A stretch of DNA of 64,000 nt from Planctomycetota bacterium (GTDB taxonomy: Bacteria; Planctomycetota; Phycisphaerae; Sedimentisphaerales; Anaerobacaceae): NCBI GenBank assembly GCA_014384025.1, contig JACNGQ010000170.1, forward strand, positions 1-64,000. The letters run 5' to 3'. Shown here in pieces: positions 11,182 to 18,560 of the stretch; the stretch's first letter is position 1; every line of letters begins with the position of its first letter. Both the position numbers and the translations under genes were made by a program. A model generated the notes under the pieces. The model searched no databases. It was not told the DNA's origin and saw nothing but the letters and a program-made list of their open reading frames with translations.

Positions 11182-11511
11182 ATGTTAAGCAACAGGCAAA
11201 AGTTAGTATTCGAAAAGCAGGCGGAAATAGCAAAGGCGATTGCACATCCGTTTAGAATAGCGATTGTCGATTTTCTAAAAGACGGTGAGCAATGTGTATG
11301 TGACATTGCCGAACATATCGGCGCCGAAAGGTCAAATGTTTCACGGCATCTTTCGGTGATGGTTAATGCCGGCCTGTTGGAGTATCGAAAAGAAGGACTC
11401 AAAGTCATATACAGGCTGAAATGTCATTGCATCGTGGATTTCTTTTCGTGTGTAAGCAGTGTCTTAAAACAGCAGGTAAGGGACAATGAAAAGCTGCTTA
11501 AGGTCTTGTAG
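11182..11511 (+). CDS. arsR: ArsR/SmtB family metalloid-responsive repressor
   Basis: This 109-aa winged-helix repressor has the recognition region AEHIGAERSNVSRHLSVMVNAGLL and the wing YRKEGLKVIYRL. It contains EQCVCDIAEH near residues 36-45, which matches the ELCVCDL arsenite-binding motif of classical ArsR proteins (C-V-C in the DNA-binding helix). Further cysteines in KCHCIVDFFSC may provide the third ligand. It is the first gene of the arsenic cluster and sits immediately behind the palindrome, so it probably represses the whole set. Confidence 0.92.
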   Translation: MLSNRQKLVFEKQAEIAKAIAHPFRIAIVDFLKDGEQCVCDIAEHIGAERSNVSRHLSVMVNAGLLEYRKEGLKVIYRLKCHCIVDFFSCVSSVLKQQVRDNEKLLKVL

Positions 11512-11565: not shown

Positions 11566-11823
11566 ATGCTTGATAATAAGACAAAAGAATTAATAGCGAT
11601 TGGTGCGTCTGTTTCATGCAACTGTCATCCGTGTGTAAAGTTTCATCTCGATAAAGCCGGGAAACTCGGTATTGAACCCCAGGACATTAAAGAAGCGCTG
11701 AAGGTCGGGATGATGGTTCGCAGCGGCGCTGCGGGTGAGATGGACAAACTTCTTTCAGAAGTTTCCGGAGAGCCTGGTATTGATATTGCTGGTAATTGTA
11801 ATGGAAAACAAAGCTGTCAGTAA
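11566..11823 (+). CDS. AhpD/carboxymuconolactone decarboxylase-like protein
   Basis: This 85-aa protein has the core of the AhpD-like alkylhydroperoxidase fold: KTKELIAIGASVSCNCHPCVKFHLDKAGKLG, with a CxxC-like CNCHPC and a downstream histidine as in the redox-active CxxCxxxH motif, then IKEALKVGMMVRSGAA. Small members of this family commonly accompany arsenic-resistance genes. A role in thiol-disulfide or peroxide reduction is inferred. The short C-terminal tail is cysteine-containing (GNCNGKQSCQ) and could bind metal. It is the second gene of the cluster. Confidence 0.8.
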   Translation: MLDNKTKELIAIGASVSCNCHPCVKFHLDKAGKLGIEPQDIKEALKVGMMVRSGAAGEMDKLLSEVSGEPGIDIAGNCNGKQSCQ

Positions 11824-11903
11824 AAAAATACGTAGTTTTTTAATTTTGTCGAAGTTCTCTCAACTAATTAGTTTATGGAAGAATGAATTTGGAGGAAACA
11901 AAA

Positions 11904-12593
11904 ATGAATCGGAGAAAATTCATAAACAAAACACTTGCCACCGGAGCCGCTGTTTCCATTTCATCGGCAACAGCTTTCGCTGGGGACCGTACATCCGTTA
12001 AGATTTTAGGCATTTCCTGCAGTCCGCGAAAGGGCAAGACTACGGCGACCGCTGTACAGGCGGCGCTTGATGCAGCCAAGAAGGTTGACGGTCATATCGA
12101 GGTCGAACTGCTTGACTTGGGTGGCCTTGAAATCTTGGGCTGGTCCGGCGGTGCCAAACCAAATGAAGCCCAACAAATAACGGACGACTTCGACCTCATT
12201 CTACCGAAGCTCCGTGATCCCGATGTTGGGGGGTGGATTATTGGTTCGCCGAGCTATTTCCGTAGCATGAGTGCTCTATGTAAGGCTTTTCTCGAACGAC
12301 TCGCTGTACTGCGTTCGCCCAAGCTGCTTCTTGCAGACAAGCCAGTTGGGGTATTAGCAGTTGGGGCTTACCGCAACGGTGGACAGGAATTAGTCATTGA
12401 GCAAATTCAAGCAGCAATGCTATGTCACGAAGTGATGGTCGTCGGAGGCAAACCCGGGGCACATCAGGGCGCAACTCTATGGAACGCTTATAAGGATGAC
12501 ATCACAAAGGACGAATTTGGAATGGACACCGCCGGAAAACTCGGAATTCGTGTAGCGGAGGCTGCACTTCGCCTTGCGCTCAGGAAGCCTTAA
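11904..12593 (+). CDS. Tat-exported NADPH-dependent FMN reductase-like flavoprotein
   Basis: This 229-aa protein starts at ATG 11904 with GGAGG 8 bases upstream; the upstream track start has no such site. The N-terminus MNRRKFINKTLATGAAVSIS is a twin-arginine signal, so the folded flavoprotein probably acts outside the cytoplasm. The mature part is flavodoxin-like: ILGISCSPRKGKTT binds the FMN phosphate, GWIIGSPSYFRSMSALCKAF lies at the isoalloxazine site, and GAYRNGGQELV follows. In an arsenic operon an ArsH-like redox role is tempting, but this is an inference; an iron-sulfur flavoprotein relative is the alternative. Confidence 0.8.
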   Translation: MNRRKFINKTLATGAAVSISSATAFAGDRTSVKILGISCSPRKGKTTATAVQAALDAAKKVDGHIEVELLDLGGLEILGWSGGAKPNEAQQITDDFDLILPKLRDPDVGGWIIGSPSYFRSMSALCKAFLERLAVLRSPKLLLADKPVGVLAVGAYRNGGQELVIEQIQAAMLCHEVMVVGGKPGAHQGATLWNAYKDDITKDEFGMDTAGKLGIRVAEAALRLALRKP

Positions 12594-12652
12594 CTCAGCA
12601 GGCCAAAGACAAGGAAAAGTTGATAAAGGCCTTGTAGTTTGTGGATTATTTT

Positions 12653-14008
12653 ATGAATCTTAAAGATAATTGGAAAAAAGTAACAATTATTATCGCGATA
12701 TTTCTCGGATGCTATTATCTTCCTGTCGGGAAAGTTCGTTTTGATAATGCAGTTACCGAGTCCCTGCATTTAGTTAAGTGGTATGCCCGTGAGCATGTTT
12801 TACTGTGTCTGGTGCCGGCCTTTTTTATCGCCGGCGCTATTTCGATTTTTGTGAGCCAGGCTTCGGTAATGAAATACCTCGGTGCAAAGGCAAACAAAGT
12901 TCTGGCTTATGCCGTTGCATCGGTATCAGGATCTATTCTTGCGGTTTGTTCCTGTACGGTTTTGCCTCTGTTTGCCGGTATTTATAAAATGGGGGCCGGT
13001 CTGGGCCCTGCCGCTACGTTTCTTTACTCCGGGCCTGCCATAAATGTCCTTGCGATAATCCTGACCGCCCGTGTATTGGGGCTTGAAATCGGTATTGCGC
13101 GCGCGGTCGGTGCAATTGTTTTCAGTGTTGTCATCGGCCTGGCCATGCACTTGATTTATCGCAAAGAAGAGCTTGCAAAAGCCAATAGTCAAATGGCCAT
13201 GCCCGAGCCTCAGGTCAACCGGCCGTTGTGGAAAAACACGTTGTATTTTGCTTCGATGGTTGGAATCCTTGTCTTCGCCAACTGGGCGCGGACTGGAGAT
13301 GTCAGGGCCGTATTCCTGTGCTGTCCGGGAGGCTTGACCACCTACAGGGTCGAAGGTACTTTACTCAACCAAACAGAAGAAACTGTTACGTTTCGGGATA
13401 CCTCCGGAAAAACGCATGAAATACCAGCGGAGCTTCTTCAAGACCTGCAGGATGTAGAGAAAAATAAAATTTACGAGTTGATACTCAGGATTCGCTGGAT
13501 TCTGGTTCTCCTTCTTCTGGCGGGTTTCGGAGTAATGATATTATTGTGGTTCACTAATGACGAACTGCGCCGGTGGTTTGGAGCATCCTGGGATTTTGCT
13601 GTGCAGATACTTCCTTTGCTTCTGGCCGGTGTGCTGATAGCCGGATTTCTTTTAGGCAGACCCGGACCCGGAAACGAGGGTATCTTACCTGCTAAATGGG
13701 TGAACGCGGCGGTTGGCGGCAACTCAATCTGGGCCAACCTGTTTGCCGCCGTTGCCGGGGCTTTCATGTATTTCGCCACCCTCACAGAGATTCCTATCCT
13801 ACAGGGTCTTATGGGGGCAGGAATGGGAAAGGGGCCTGCTCTGGCATTGCTTCTGGCGGGTCCTGCTTTGTCTTTGCCGAATATGCTTGTAATTCGCTCG
13901 GTTATGGGAACCCGCAAGACTATTGTTTTCGTTGTGCTTGTCATTGTAATGGCGACAATCTCAGGAATAATTTTTGGAATAATATCTAAAGGATTGGTTT
14001 CAGCATGA
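12653..14008 (+). CDS. ArsP/DUF318-type permease with inserted soluble domain
   Basis: This 451-aa polytopic membrane protein of the DUF318 permease family includes ArsP (organoarsenical exporter) and related metal permeases. The family hallmark is the [20 protein letters not shown] segment with a CSC pair, and [17 protein letters not shown] marks the second half. Between the two membrane bundles is an extra segment of about 80 residues, containing [15 protein letters not shown] and a charged region ending DVEKNKIY, not usual for compact ArsP proteins. The TTG/GTG region upstream is ambiguous; ATG 12653 is chosen. Its end overlaps acr3 by 4 bases (ATGA). Confidence 0.85.
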
Positions 14009-15216
14009 CAAATGATATAGACACAAATTTAAATATAGAAAATTCCAGCAAGGAAAAGAAACTTCATTTTTTTGAAAAATATCTGACCCTGTGGGTACTG
14101 TTATGTATAGCCGTCGGCATGGTTTTGGGCAAGGCTGCACCCCAGTTCGCCGGATGGCTTGACGGCCTTGCGATTTATGTCAATCAGGCGCCTGTCATAT
14201 CTATCCCGATTGCGATATGTTTGTTCTTTATGATGTATCCGATTATGGTGAAAATTGATTTTGCCGAAGTGCTGAAGGCCGGCAAAAGTATCAAGCCGGT
14301 AGGTTTGACCCTCTTTGTAAATTGGGCGATAAAGCCGTTTACTATGTATGCAATATCGGTGTTTTTTCTTGGTACGGTGTTCTATGGTTTCATCGGCCCG
14401 GAAGCCGTTGACCAGGTAAAGATGCCTTTCGGTCTCGATCTTCCCATTGGCGCCGTCTATGGGGCTGGAACAGTTATCGAAGTTGGTGGTATCAAAATGC
14501 TCCAGGTTCCTCTTTGGAGAAGTTACCTGGCCGGCTGTATTCTCCTTGGGATTGCACCATGTACGGCTATGGTTCTTGTCTGGGGCTATCTTGCTAAAGG
14601 AAACGATGGACACACTCTGGTAATGGTGGCCATCAACTCTCTGACTATGCTTTTGTTGTACGGCCTGTTAGGGGGTTTTTTACTTGGTGTCGGCAGACTT
14701 CCGGTTCCCTGGCAGGCATTGCTGTTGTCGATTGCAATATATGTTGCTTTGCCGCTGGCTGCGGGATATTTATCGCGAAAATGGATTATCGCCGCTAAGG
14801 GTGAGGCCTGGTTCAAGCAGAAATTCCTGCACTTTCTCACGCCCGTTACGATAATAGCATTACTTGTCACCCTGGTCTTGTTGTTCTCGTTCAAAGGAGA
14901 AGTTATTCTTTCAAATCCTCTGACGATTCTATGGATTGCGATACCCTTGTTTATTCAGACCAACCTTATCTTCTGGCTTGGCTATGGGCTGGCAAGGATT
15001 TTGAAACTCGAATACAGTGATGCGGCGCCGTCTGCGATGATAGGTGCTTCTAATCACTTTGAGGTTGCAATAGCAACATCGACAATGCTGTTCGGTCTGT
15101 CTTCGGGGGCCGCTCTGGCAACCGTCGTCGGTGTGCTTATTGAGGTACCTGTTATGCTTATGCTTGTGCGAATATGCCTTAAGACACAAAAATGGTTTGG
15201 AACAGTTCAAGACTAA
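14005..15216 (+). CDS. acr3: ACR3-family arsenite efflux transporter
   Basis: This 403-aa member of the bile/arsenite/riboflavin transporter superfamily extrudes arsenite, energised by the membrane potential. Typical features are [20 protein letters not shown] at the start, [19 protein letters not shown] with the essential cysteine of membrane segment 4, and [20 protein letters not shown] in segment 9. About ten membrane segments can be traced. It overlaps the permease gene by 4 bases, indicating translational coupling. No arsenate reductase gene is seen, so the cluster handles arsenite directly or relies on arsC elsewhere. Confidence 0.95.
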
Positions 15217-15271
15217 AACGGTTGATATGGAAGAGTTTTGTTAGTAATCTTTTTCTCAAAGGGATATGACG

Positions 15272-15505
15272 ATGAAAAAAATACAGATTCTCGGCACAGG
15301 ATGTCCAAAGTGTAAGAAGCTGGCGGAAAATGCCGAGGCGGCCGCAAAAGACCTTGGTATTGAATACGATATTGAGAAGATTACAAATATCAACGAGATT
15401 ATGGGCTTTGGTGTAATGATGACACCGGCTCTGGCGGTGGACGGCGACGTCAAAGTGGTCGGGAAAGTATCATCACCCGATGAAATTAAGGCAATGCTTG
15501 CATAG
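15272..15505 (+). CDS. CPKC mini-thioredoxin (TM0996/redox-active disulfide type)
   Basis: This 77-aa protein has the thioredoxin fold with the active site GTGCPKCKKLAENAE near residues 9-23, a cis-proline segment MMTPALAVDG, and KVVGKVSSPDEIKAML at the end. Proteins of this group are cytoplasmic and often encoded next to ArsP-type permeases. A role in handing reduced metalloid or reducing the permease cysteines is inferred. ATG 15272 is chosen over ATG 15266 because AAGGGA lies 7 bases before it and only one base before the other. Confidence 0.9.
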   Translation: MKKIQILGTGCPKCKKLAENAEAAAKDLGIEYDIEKITNINEIMGFGVMMTPALAVDGDVKVVGKVSSPDEIKAMLA

Positions 15506-15546: not shown

Positions 15547-16854
15547 ATGAATAAGGTGGGAAAAATAGCAACTGTTATCTTTCTAATTGTTGCCGTGGTT
15601 ATTGTGGTTGTTGTTAAACAGAACCATAAGGCAAATTCCGGAGCAGTTGTCGATGAGGGGTCTATTAACAGTGTTGTAGGTCCTGAAGTTGAGGGGCCTG
15701 AGACTGCCAGGTTCGATGCTTCAAAAGGATTGCCCCGGCTGGTTGACCTCGGTGCGGATAAGTGCATACCGTGTAAGATGATGGCCCCTCTCCTTGTTGA
15801 ATTAAAAAGCGAATATGAAGGTACTCTTAAAGTAGAGTTTATCGATGTCTGGAAAAACCCTGATGAGGCTCCAAAGTATGGCATTAAGCTTATACCGACA
15901 CAAATATTCTTCGATGCTTCAGGTAAAGAGCTTTTCCGCCACGAAGGTTTTTACTCCAAAGAGGATATTCTGTCTAAATGGAAAGAATTGGGTGTGGAGT
16001 TATCTGCGGTGAGCATACCGTCTTTTGAGAGATTCGAGCCAGCTCAAGCCGATAACAGGAGCAAAGACAATATCTGCTATATGTGCGATGGTGATATCGC
16101 TCCCAGTACGCTTGTAAATGTTAGCACGGAAAAAGGGCCGGTTCGGCTCTGCAGCCCGCATTGTTATTTCATCATGTATTCCTGCCTGACAGAGAACAAG
16201 ACCGGCTTTGAAGAAAAGGTCTCGGTGGCAGATTGGGCTACGGGTGAAACCATTGTCGCTTCGAAGGCGATGTATCTTTATGGTCTCGATGGTCAAACAG
16301 GGCGACCAATCATCAAAGCTTTCACCGATAAGATACGTCCTAACCAAGCTGCTTCCGGCGGGATCGTTATCAATTGGGAAGCCTTGCAGGACAAGGAATT
16401 GGCCATTCGTTGCGGATTTTGTGATCGGGCCTGTTATCCGCAGGATGCCGCTGAAGTTATCGCCGGAGGAATACATACTTATGGATGCTGTTCGCATTGT
16501 GCGCTGGGAGTAGCAGCCCGTACCGGTCTGGATATTGAAGTACATGAGCGGGACCGGTTAACCGATGGGCCGATTGTTGTTAAGACACTTGACGGCAAAG
16601 TGGCCTCACTGGAACCTGCGACGGCCGTTGCCTGGTTTGGCCAACGAAAAAAGCCGGACGGTACATGGGGCTCCGCCGGCTGCTTTCATCAGGGCTTTTT
16701 CGTCACTTTAGAAAATCTCAAGGAATGGGTTGACCGCAATCCACATGAAACCGGTAAGATGATTACTATTCACCAGGCGCTGGCGAACAAAATGAAACTC
16801 TCGCCAGAACAAATCCAAAAAGCCTGCAAGATTGGCGAATGTGCCCCGAAATAA
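15547..16854 (+). CDS. Membrane-anchored thioredoxin fused to NosL-like Cys modules
   Basis: This 435-aa protein has an N-terminal membrane anchor at residues 7-23, then a thioredoxin domain (about 55-150) with CIPC at 73-76 and cis-proline LIPTQIFF. Next comes a cysteine-rich region with CYMC (177-180), CSPHC (202-206) and VADWATGETIVASKAMYLYG, which resembles the NosL metal-chaperone fold. A second module carries CGFCDRAC (289-296) and CCSHC (314-318). It should sit on the outer face of the cytoplasmic membrane, be kept reduced by the CcdA-like protein two genes on, and bind or reduce thiophilic metal. The NosL link is by eye; TRASH or MerB-like folds are alternatives. Confidence 0.75.
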   Translation: MNKVGKIATVIFLIVAVVIVVVVKQNHKANSGAVVDEGSINSVVGPEVEGPETARFDASKGLPRLVDLGADKCIPCKMMAPLLVELKSEYEGTLKVEFIDVWKNPDEAPKYGIKLIPTQIFFDASGKELFRHEGFYSKEDILSKWKELGVELSAVSIPSFERFEPAQADNRSKDNICYMCDGDIAPSTLVNVSTEKGPVRLCSPHCYFIMYSCLTENKTGFEEKVSVADWATGETIVASKAMYLYGLDGQTGRPIIKAFTDKIRPNQAASGGIVINWEALQDKELAIRCGFCDRACYPQDAAEVIAGGIHTYGCCSHCALGVAARTGLDIEVHERDRLTDGPIVVKTLDGKVASLEPATAVAWFGQRKKPDGTWGSAGCFHQGFFVTLENLKEWVDRNPHETGKMITIHQALANKMKLSPEQIQKACKIGECAPK

Positions 16855-16913
16855 TATTTTCTGACTGAACGGCTGTTTTGTTGTGCGCCAGGTCGAATAT
16901 GAGGAGTATTAAA

Positions 16914-17858
16914 ATGAAGTGCTTCGGCATTATAACAGTTTTGTATCTTTCTTTGTTGCCCCTCCAAGGGTCCGAAAAGAGCAATACGGTCAAGCCATCT
17001 TCGTTACCAAAACCCCGGACAGTAAATCAACTGTATCCGGGTTTGACAACAGGAGCGATGAGCTGCGCCGTTGTCTCAAGACTTCCGGAAGGCGTAGTGC
17101 TCAGGGCCGGAGATCTGGTGATTGAAAACAATGAGTTAATCGAAGAAATCGGCAAGGCGCCGGAGCAAATTCGACCAAAGCTCAAAAAAAATACATTTTT
17201 CGTTTTGGAGCAGGTCGCAACTTTAAAGTTACTTCTGACAGAGGCAAGAACCGAGGCCGCCAAAAGCGGCAAGGACATTTCGGAAAAGAACGAACAGGCA
17301 ATTATCCAGGACTATTTGGGTGCTTTAGCTATGACGGTAAAAGTCGGCGATGAAGAAATTTTTGATTTCTACAACGGCAATAAAGAAATGCTTGGTAGTG
17401 CTTCTCTGGCTCAAGTAAAGCCTCAAATCGAGCAATTCCTGCTCCAGCAGAAACAGCAGGAACTCATCAATGAACACATCCGGACCATCGGCCGCAGAAT
17501 GCAGATTGAAATTTCCGCCTCGTGGCTCAAGGTCCAGGCAGCTTTGGCAAGAGACAACCCGGTTGACAAAGCCCGCGCAAGCGGCAGAGCCTCCCTTGTC
17601 GATTTCGGTTCGACCGGATGCGTGCCTTGCGATATGATGGCGCCGATACTTGAAACGCTGCGAGAAAAATACAATGGTAAAGTTAATGTTCTCTTTATTC
17701 ATGTAGGAGAAGAACCGATACTTGCATCACGTTACGGTGTGCAATCTATTCCTGTCCAGATATTCTTCGATACAACCGGCAAAGAGGTGTTTCGCCACGT
17801 CGGTTTTTTTCCACAGGAACAGATCGAGGGAAAACTGTCGGAAATGCGGGTCAAATAG
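16914..17858 (+). CDS. Secreted SurA/PpiC-like helical domain fused to thioredoxin
   Basis: This 314-aa protein starts at ATG 16914 with GAGGAG upstream; the track start 16878 lacks one. A signal peptide is visible (FGIITVLYLSLLPLQG). Residues about 65-215 are helical and resemble the N-terminal chaperone part of SurA/PpiC proteins (LVIENNELIEEIGK, LLLTEARTEAAKSGKDISE, VKPQIEQFLLQQKQQELINEH) without the isomerase domain. Residues about 225-314 form a thioredoxin domain with CVPC at 236-239 and SIPVQIFFDTTGKEVFRH. This domain closely resembles that of the preceding gene, implying tandem duplication with different partner domains. It probably takes electrons from the CcdA-like gene that starts 3 bases downstream. 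Confidence 0.8.
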   Translation: MKCFGIITVLYLSLLPLQGSEKSNTVKPSSLPKPRTVNQLYPGLTTGAMSCAVVSRLPEGVVLRAGDLVIENNELIEEIGKAPEQIRPKLKKNTFFVLEQVATLKLLLTEARTEAAKSGKDISEKNEQAIIQDYLGALAMTVKVGDEEIFDFYNGNKEMLGSASLAQVKPQIEQFLLQQKQQELINEHIRTIGRRMQIEISASWLKVQAALARDNPVDKARASGRASLVDFGSTGCVPCDMMAPILETLREKYNGKVNVLFIHVGEEPILASRYGVQSIPVQIFFDTTGKEVFRHVGFFPQEQIEGKLSEMRVK

Positions 17859-17861
17859 CGG

Positions 17862-18560
17862 ATGGAAAAACTTTTTACAACGCTGACACATGCTGTTGAG
17901 AGTACACCGGCAATAGCCCTGAGCGCAGCCTTCGTATGGGGAATCCTGAGCATACTGCTCAGTCCGTGCCACCTTGCGAGCATTCCTCTTATCGTAGGTT
18001 TCATAGACGGGCAGGGTCGCATCTCAACTAAACGGGCCTTTATCATATCGACCCTTTTTGCAGTGGGCATTTTAATGACGATAGGTGCTATAGGAGCTGT
18101 TACCGCTGCTCTCGGCAGAATGATGGGGGATATCGGCAGCTACGGCAACTACTTTGTTGCTCTGGTATTTTTTGCCGTTGGCCTGAATCTTCTGGGTGTA
18201 ATACCTATGCCGTGGAGCGCTCCCGGCAAGGTTGGTTTCAAACGCAAAGGGATGCTCGCAGCGTTTATTCTCGGGCTGGTATTCGGTATCGCGTTGGGGC
18301 CCTGCACCTTCGCATATATGGCGCCTATGCTGGGTGTTACGTTCAAATTAGCCGCGACGAATCTCTTATACGGTGTATTCCTGCTTGTAGTTTACGGGCT
18401 TGGACATTGTTCTGTTATCATCCTGGCGGGGACGTGCACCGAACTCGTTCAGCGTTATATGAACTGGAATGAGAAATCCAGAGGCGCGGTAGTCCTTAAG
18501 AAAATCTGCGGTGTACTTGTTCTGATAGGCGGCCTTTACCTGATTTATATGACCAATTAA
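17862..18560 (+). CDS. ccdA: CcdA/DsbD-type transmembrane electron carrier
   Basis: This 232-aa, six-helix membrane protein moves reducing equivalents from cytoplasmic thioredoxin to extracytoplasmic thiol proteins. The redox cysteines are in the expected places: SILLSPCHLASIPLIVGF in helix 1 and FGIALGPCTFAYMAPMLG in helix 4. It follows the second thioredoxin fusion by 3 bases and is the last gene of the arsenic cluster. Its context suggests service to the two extracytoplasmic thioredoxins upstream and not cytochrome c maturation; no ccm/ccs genes are present here. Confidence 0.92.
   Translation: MEKLFTTLTHAVESTPAIALSAAFVWGILSILLSPCHLASIPLIVGFIDGQGRISTKRAFIISTLFAVGILMTIGAIGAVTAALGRMMGDIGSYGNYFVALVFFAVGLNLLGVIPMPWSAPGKVGFKRKGMLAAFILGLVFGIALGPCTFAYMAPMLGVTFKLAATNLLYGVFLLVVYGLGHCSVIILAGTCTELVQRYMNWNEKSRGAVVLKKICGVLVLIGGLYLIYMTN

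Follow-up and report, generated by a model that had tools for sequence, protein, structure and literature searches.

The DNA analysed here, referred to as the window, is a stretch of 64,000 nucleotides from a Planctomycetota bacterium (GenBank assembly GCA_014384025.1, contig JACNGQ010000170.1, positions 1 to 64,000 of the forward strand). It contains an operon that runs from an ArsR-type regulator to a CcdA-type electron carrier; all its genes share a strand, and neighbours are spaced -4 to 59 bases apart (Table 1). One of these genes, beginning 41 bases after its upstream neighbour and present in a single copy in the 6.7 Mb draft genome, encodes a protein with 16 cysteines in which a thioredoxin domain is joined to a NosL-like and a MerB-like module.

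Table 1. Genes of the operon and features of the fusion gene, in window coordinates
Feature	Position	Strand	Evidence or detail
ArsR-type regulator, EQCVCD motif	11182..11511	+	HTH_5 3e-15; NF033788 above cutoff
AhpD/CMD-like small protein	11566..11823	+	PF02627 4.6e-12
FMN reductase-like protein, Tat-type-looking leader (by eye)	11883..12593	+	PF03358 8.3e-26
ArsP_1 family permease	12641..14008	+	PF03773 2.6e-75; below cutoff for SO_0444 and SaoE
ACR3 arsenite efflux transporter	14005..15216	+	TIGR00832 371.7 bits, above cutoff
ArsE/MTH895-family small thioredoxin	15266..15505	+	TIGR00412 107.4 bits, above cutoff
Thioredoxin-NosL-MerB fusion gene	15547..16854	+	435 aa; ORF list, Pfam, hhalign, 81 distinct relatives
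N-terminal hydrophobic anchor/signal-anchor	15562..15621	+	aa 6-25; prediction only
Thioredoxin domain	15724..15996	+	aa 60-150; CIPC (C73-I-P-C76) at 15763-15774
NosL-like module	16063..16404	+	aa 173-286; C177xxC180 at 16075-16086, C202SPHC206 at 16150-16164
MerB-like module	16405..16806	+	aa 287-420; C289xxC292 at 16411-16422, C314CSHC318 at 16486-16500, C379 at 16681-16683
C-terminal C427xxxxC432 tail	16825..16842	+	Invariant, 81 relatives
Second thioredoxin, SurA/PPIase-like N-terminal part	16878..17858	+	PF00085 8.5e-12; peptidylprolyl isomerase match weak
CcdA/DsbD-type transmembrane electron carrier	17862..18560	+	PF02683 2.1e-11

An earlier note, made from the DNA letters alone, had read this open reading frame as a CIPC thioredoxin domain that follows an N-terminal anchor and precedes two NosL-like cysteine modules in tandem. 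The reading frame, the predicted anchor, and the thioredoxin domain are present as it claimed; the last matches PF00085 over residues 64-144 (9.5e-13) and PDB thioredoxins at 1.6e-14, and both cysteines of its CxxC occur in all 80 aligned sequences that reach them. The tandem reading holds for the first module only. Profile–profile comparison in hhalign, with NosL and MerB profiles built from sequences collected in the present analysis, parts the two modules cleanly and rules out a NosL pair: module 1 (residues 173-286) scores 95.8% against NosL (E 7e-9) and 0.2% against MerB, whereas module 2 (residues 286–432) scores 98.9% against MerB (E 2e-17) and 1.6% against NosL.

Structure prediction followed by a fold search, a check that the note had proposed, gave matches to MerB and NosL. 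An AlphaFold2 model of residues 166-435 built with 79 sequences reached a pLDDT of 93.8 and a pTM of 0.89, and a model of the anchor-less protein (residues 48-435) was also confident (pLDDT 91, pTM 0.84). When the model of residues 166-435 was compared with the PDB by Foldseek, 11 MerB chains ranked on top (best MerB2, 8.3e-10), and NosL came next with three chains (E 0.02–0.07, probability 0.8–0.9) that were not assigned to one module; nothing credible appeared beyond these MerB and NosL chains. The Pfam and hhalign domain assignments bear out the claim that a thioredoxin shares its chain with metal-site modules. The protein has three domains and is predicted to be exported and N-anchored.

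Relatives were recruited through two peptide patterns, and nearly all come from uncultured bins. Only four copies turned up among 294 sampled genomes of the phylum; a scan of about 85,000 species, with one genome for each, returned 90 relatives, of which 80 were kept, giving 81 distinct proteins after merging. Their hosts belong to the Planctomycetota, Verrucomicrobiota, Kiritimatiellota, Lentisphaerota, Armatimonadota, and Omnitrophota, together with a Riflebacteria bin and a Desulfovibrio bin, so that the fusion is spread over at least seven phyla. The tree of relatives is not cleanly sorted by phylum, which suggests horizontal transfer of the gene, though the sequences derive from metagenome bins. 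No viral relatives were found, and plasmid matches were thioredoxins or distant MerBs only.

All relatives carry the three domains in one chain except a contig-end fragment (L065), a protein split by a TAA codon (L043), and one with an insertion (L060). We dismissed a selenoprotein version within the family, the split codon of L043 being TAA and not TGA. A hydrophobic, export-type N-terminus is predicted in 80 of 81 relatives, some with a cleavable-looking signal and one with a lipobox. When 392 genomes of the phylum were searched with a profile, no relative without the thioredoxin domain came up, and the two weak extra matches were NosL-like domains elsewhere.

The cysteine motifs listed in the earlier note (C177-Y-M-C180 and C202-S-P-H-C206 in module 1, C289-G-F-C292-D-R-A-C296 and C314-C315-S-H-C318 in module 2) are real, and its expectation that they are conserved in orthologues was largely borne out. 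C73, C76, C177, C289, C292, C314, C315, C318, C379, C427, and C432 are kept in every covering row of the 81 relatives, and H205 is likewise invariant. C180 is found in 80 of 81 and C202 in 79 of 81; position 206 is Cys in 72 relatives and His in 8, and position 213 is Cys in 57. The exception among the listed cysteines is C296, conserved in only 30 of 81, and neither C379 nor the C427/C432 tail, all of them invariant, figured in the note's inventory. The conservation of C379 is not an artefact of the CFHQGFF search pattern, as all 22 relatives without that pattern keep it. Because these cysteines are conserved across 81 distinct relatives, the architecture is not a product of chance.

By profile comparison, module 1 is related to the NosL copper lipoprotein (PF05573; PDB 7OSF, 7ZNQ). 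Pfam NosL matches 49 of 79 relatives (best 1.8e-6); the middle of the window protein alone gives no Pfam match, PF05573 included. C177xxC180 aligns with the NosL CxxC, and the likeness extends to the D-x-x-T-G-x-x-x-x-A-x-x-A-x-Y and GG regions. NosL is extracytoplasmic, as the fusion is predicted to be. The C-x-x-C-x-M copper motif found in our collected NosLs is absent, however: module 1 reads CYMCDGD, without the methionine, and has an additional CxxHC where NosL has FDD. No nos genes occur among the listed neighbours of the fusion gene. Elsewhere, a single open frame in locus L124 (genome G239) encodes an S41 peptidase domain preceded by a NosL-like domain that bears CxxCxM and CCVHC motifs.

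The kinship of module 2 to MerB, the organomercurial lyase (PF03243; PDB 3F0O, MerB2 5C17), is firm. Pfam MerB covers residues 308–412 of the window protein (E 4.9e-16, 59.3 bits against a cutoff of 27) and matches all 79 relatives searched. When the module is aligned by HMM with MerB of E. coli (5c0t) and with MerB2 (5c17), C96 falls at C315, D99 at C318, C117 at D336, and C159 at C379. Both mercury-binding cysteines of MerB, C96 and C159, are therefore kept and are invariant in the relatives, whereas the proton donor D99 is replaced by Cys in 81 of 81 and the C117 position is Asp in every row. Two annotated MerBs with Asp99 likewise carry Asp at 117; therefore, the Asp at 117 is not unusual and the idea of a special swap with Asp99 is weakened, while Cys at 99 is unusual. 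In a large survey, MerB is defined by C96, D99, C117, and C159, and the sole variants given are 99Ser and 117alt (PMC8261052); by alignment, the fusion family has 99Cys plus 117Asp.

Module 2 also has additions to the MerB plan, namely an invariant CxxC (C289/C292), a second active-site cysteine (C314, just before the C96 position), and the CxxxxC tail. The CxxC lies 23 residues ahead of C315 and matches MerB there by spacing alone. The fusion also differs from MerB in its predicted export, its attachment to other domains, and its ars-type rather than mer context, and it falls well short of the NCBIfam MerB cutoffs (NF033555, 24.6 against 200 bits; NF009710, 21.5 against 193 bits). Since both the D99 signature and these cutoffs fail, we do not call it an organomercurial lyase, and canonical MerB identity for module 2 is ruled out. 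Proton donation might still come from a Cys at position 99, so that cleavage of a carbon–metal(loid) bond by the fusion is possible but unsupported.

Two observations concern selenocysteine. In another genome of the same phylum (G016), a MerB-like gene (L094:1303-1983) carries an in-frame TGA at the Cys159 position. That genome has a tRNA-Sec gene (80 bits), so a selenoprotein is possible; the 50 bases that follow fold no better than shuffles, so the TGA may instead be a nonsense mutation. The source genome of the window has its own tRNA-Sec match (G000:C436:2628-2718, 76 bits, above the Rfam cutoff) and may therefore make selenoproteins.

The fusion gene is nearly always found in arsenic-type resistance operons. 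Among 42 well-flanked loci, ArsE occurs in 40, ArsR in 38, ArsP in 36, CcdA in 35, a DGC-domain protein in 23, and FMN reductase in 22. ACR3, ArsM, or ArsA is present in 24 of these loci, and all three are absent nearby in the other 18; in 48 of 61 loci a CxCD motif occurs in the closest ArsR. The typical order across relatives is ArsR–ArsP–ArsE–(DGC)–[fusion]–thioredoxin/ArsF–CcdA/ArsG, the identities of ArsM, ArsA, ArsF, and ArsG having been checked on one representative each. The SurA-like/thioredoxin fusion encoded at 16878-17858 of the window recurs in 26 of 82 loci. The window's ArsP_1 permease has 455 residues against 294 Pfam model positions, and its middle FLCCPGG stretch looks like an insertion.

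These loci resemble the ArsEFG set in that ArsE exceeds its NCBIfam cutoff beside the fusion gene, as do ArsF and ArsG in some loci (the latter two on representatives from a related locus). ArsEFG is linked to roxarsone and nitarsone in the title of Chen, Zhang, and Rosen 2019, as cited in PMC9144182. CcdA, thioredoxin, and redox-disulfide genes in ars operons were recorded in 2010 in a description that names neither NosL nor MerB and does not mention their fusion (PMC2963123). Another comparison is the SAO system, described for organometals (PMC13188914), in which a MerB-like protein (SaoL) accompanies a permease of ArsP type (SaoE) and a small protein resembling thioredoxin (SaoT); all three kinds of protein are shared with the fusion loci. 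SaoL was compared by profile score and description: its model NF040728 (cutoff 140 bits) gives weak matches below cutoff in 61 of 79 relatives (best 1.3e-5) and, with E values up to 10 allowed, none in the window protein. The fusion lacks Sec; it has the pair C314-C315, and the active site of SaoL has a Cys-Sec pair. The SaoB/X/P ABC transporter was not recognised at fusion loci.

A precedent for a thioredoxin fold before MerB exists in actinobacterial MerBs such as WP_065848419.1 (Thioredoxin_3 0.0037, below cutoff). They differ in having another thioredoxin subfamily, a retained Asp99, and no NosL module, and a MerR gene adjoins in two records. Two actinobacterial plasmid MerBs (L107:4-1005, L108:34-1008) have such an N-terminal thioredoxin-like stretch, likewise below the Thioredoxin_3 cutoff. 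For the fusion itself, we found no published account in the open-access literature under combinations of NosL, MerB, thioredoxin, and arsenic. It appears to be a previously unnamed component and a candidate for arsenic or organo-arsenic handling outside the cell membrane.

With middling confidence, we propose that the fusion is a thiol protein of ars operons that is anchored in the membrane, faces outward from the cytoplasm, draws its electrons from CcdA, and handles a soft metal(loid). Electrons would cross the membrane through CcdA (ArsG in some loci) to the thioredoxin domain, which would hold the cysteines of the two metal-site modules in the reduced state, or reduce them and so free bound metal. 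C315, C318, and C379 of the MerB-like module would form a three-thiol variant of the MerB site and take the metal(loid), for which a trivalent organoarsenical or As(III) is likeliest, and the NosL-like module and the C427/C432 tail would hand it on. The thioredoxin-controlled reduction or release of bound metal envisaged in the earlier note fits the adjacent CcdA/ArsG genes. On the best reading of these sequences, the fusion may capture, pass on, or cleave soft metal(loid), likeliest trivalent or organic arsenic.

Several points weigh against this proposal: 18 of the 42 well-flanked loci lack ACR3, ArsM, and ArsA nearby; ArsR and ArsP_1 are not arsenic-specific families; among NCBIfam models the window permease matches SO_0444 (Cu/Zn efflux) and SaoE best, in each case below cutoff; and the CxxC pairs may be no more than structural zinc sites. 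A different explanation would make the fusion a thioredoxin-linked copper or zinc chaperone and the ArsP_1 permease an exporter of Cu/Zn rather than arsenicals. NosL is a copper-binding lipoprotein, the window permease matches SO_0444 with 113 bits, and copper binding has been described for a D99S mutant of E. coli MerB (Wahba 2016, as cited in PMC8261052). We consider this explanation unlikely, given the missing NosL methionine, the presence of ACR3, ArsM, or ArsA in more than half of the well-flanked loci, and a permease score far under the SO_0444 cutoff of 300.

It is improbable, too, that the fusion is a disulfide reductase or isomerase for the exported proteins of the operon, its NosL- and MerB-like modules being structural zinc domains that hold clients. 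Its CIPC thioredoxin does adjoin CcdA and a second exported thioredoxin, and its CxxC plus CxxC/CxxHC sets resemble treble-clef zinc sites (PMC4999995). This account leaves C379 and C427/C432 invariant though outside those ligand sets, and C315/C379 coincident with the MerB mercury ligands; the gene surroundings are those of metal(loid) resistance, not general folding. A true organomercurial lyase is very improbable, even with the Pfam match and Cys96 and Cys159 retained throughout, given the universal loss of Asp99, the low NCBIfam score, the lack of any recurrent mer gene among the clustered neighbours of relatives, and a best MerA-model match in the source genome that lies below cutoff.

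The NosL/MerB fold has been proposed to derive from duplicated zinc treble clefs that later lost zinc (PMC4999995). The fusion bears on this proposal through cysteine sets in both modules, C177xxC180 with C202xx(H205)C206 and C289xxC292 with C315xxC318, and both modules may retain ancestral metal sites of the fold. Its 99Cys would be a third active-site variant of MerB beside the Asp99 and Ser99 of the survey (PMC8261052). Overall, the fusion adds an unnamed, widespread component to operons of arsenic type in uncultured bacteria. ArsI, the known lyase for C–As bonds, requires oxygen. As a long shot, the fusion might be an oxygen-independent, thioredoxin-driven enzyme of the MerB fold that uses a three-thiol site to cleave C–As (or other C–metalloid) bonds outside the membrane of anaerobes, its modules retaining ancestral four-cysteine metal sites. 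Such an anaerobic counterpart of ArsI, if true, would fill a gap in arsenic cycling.
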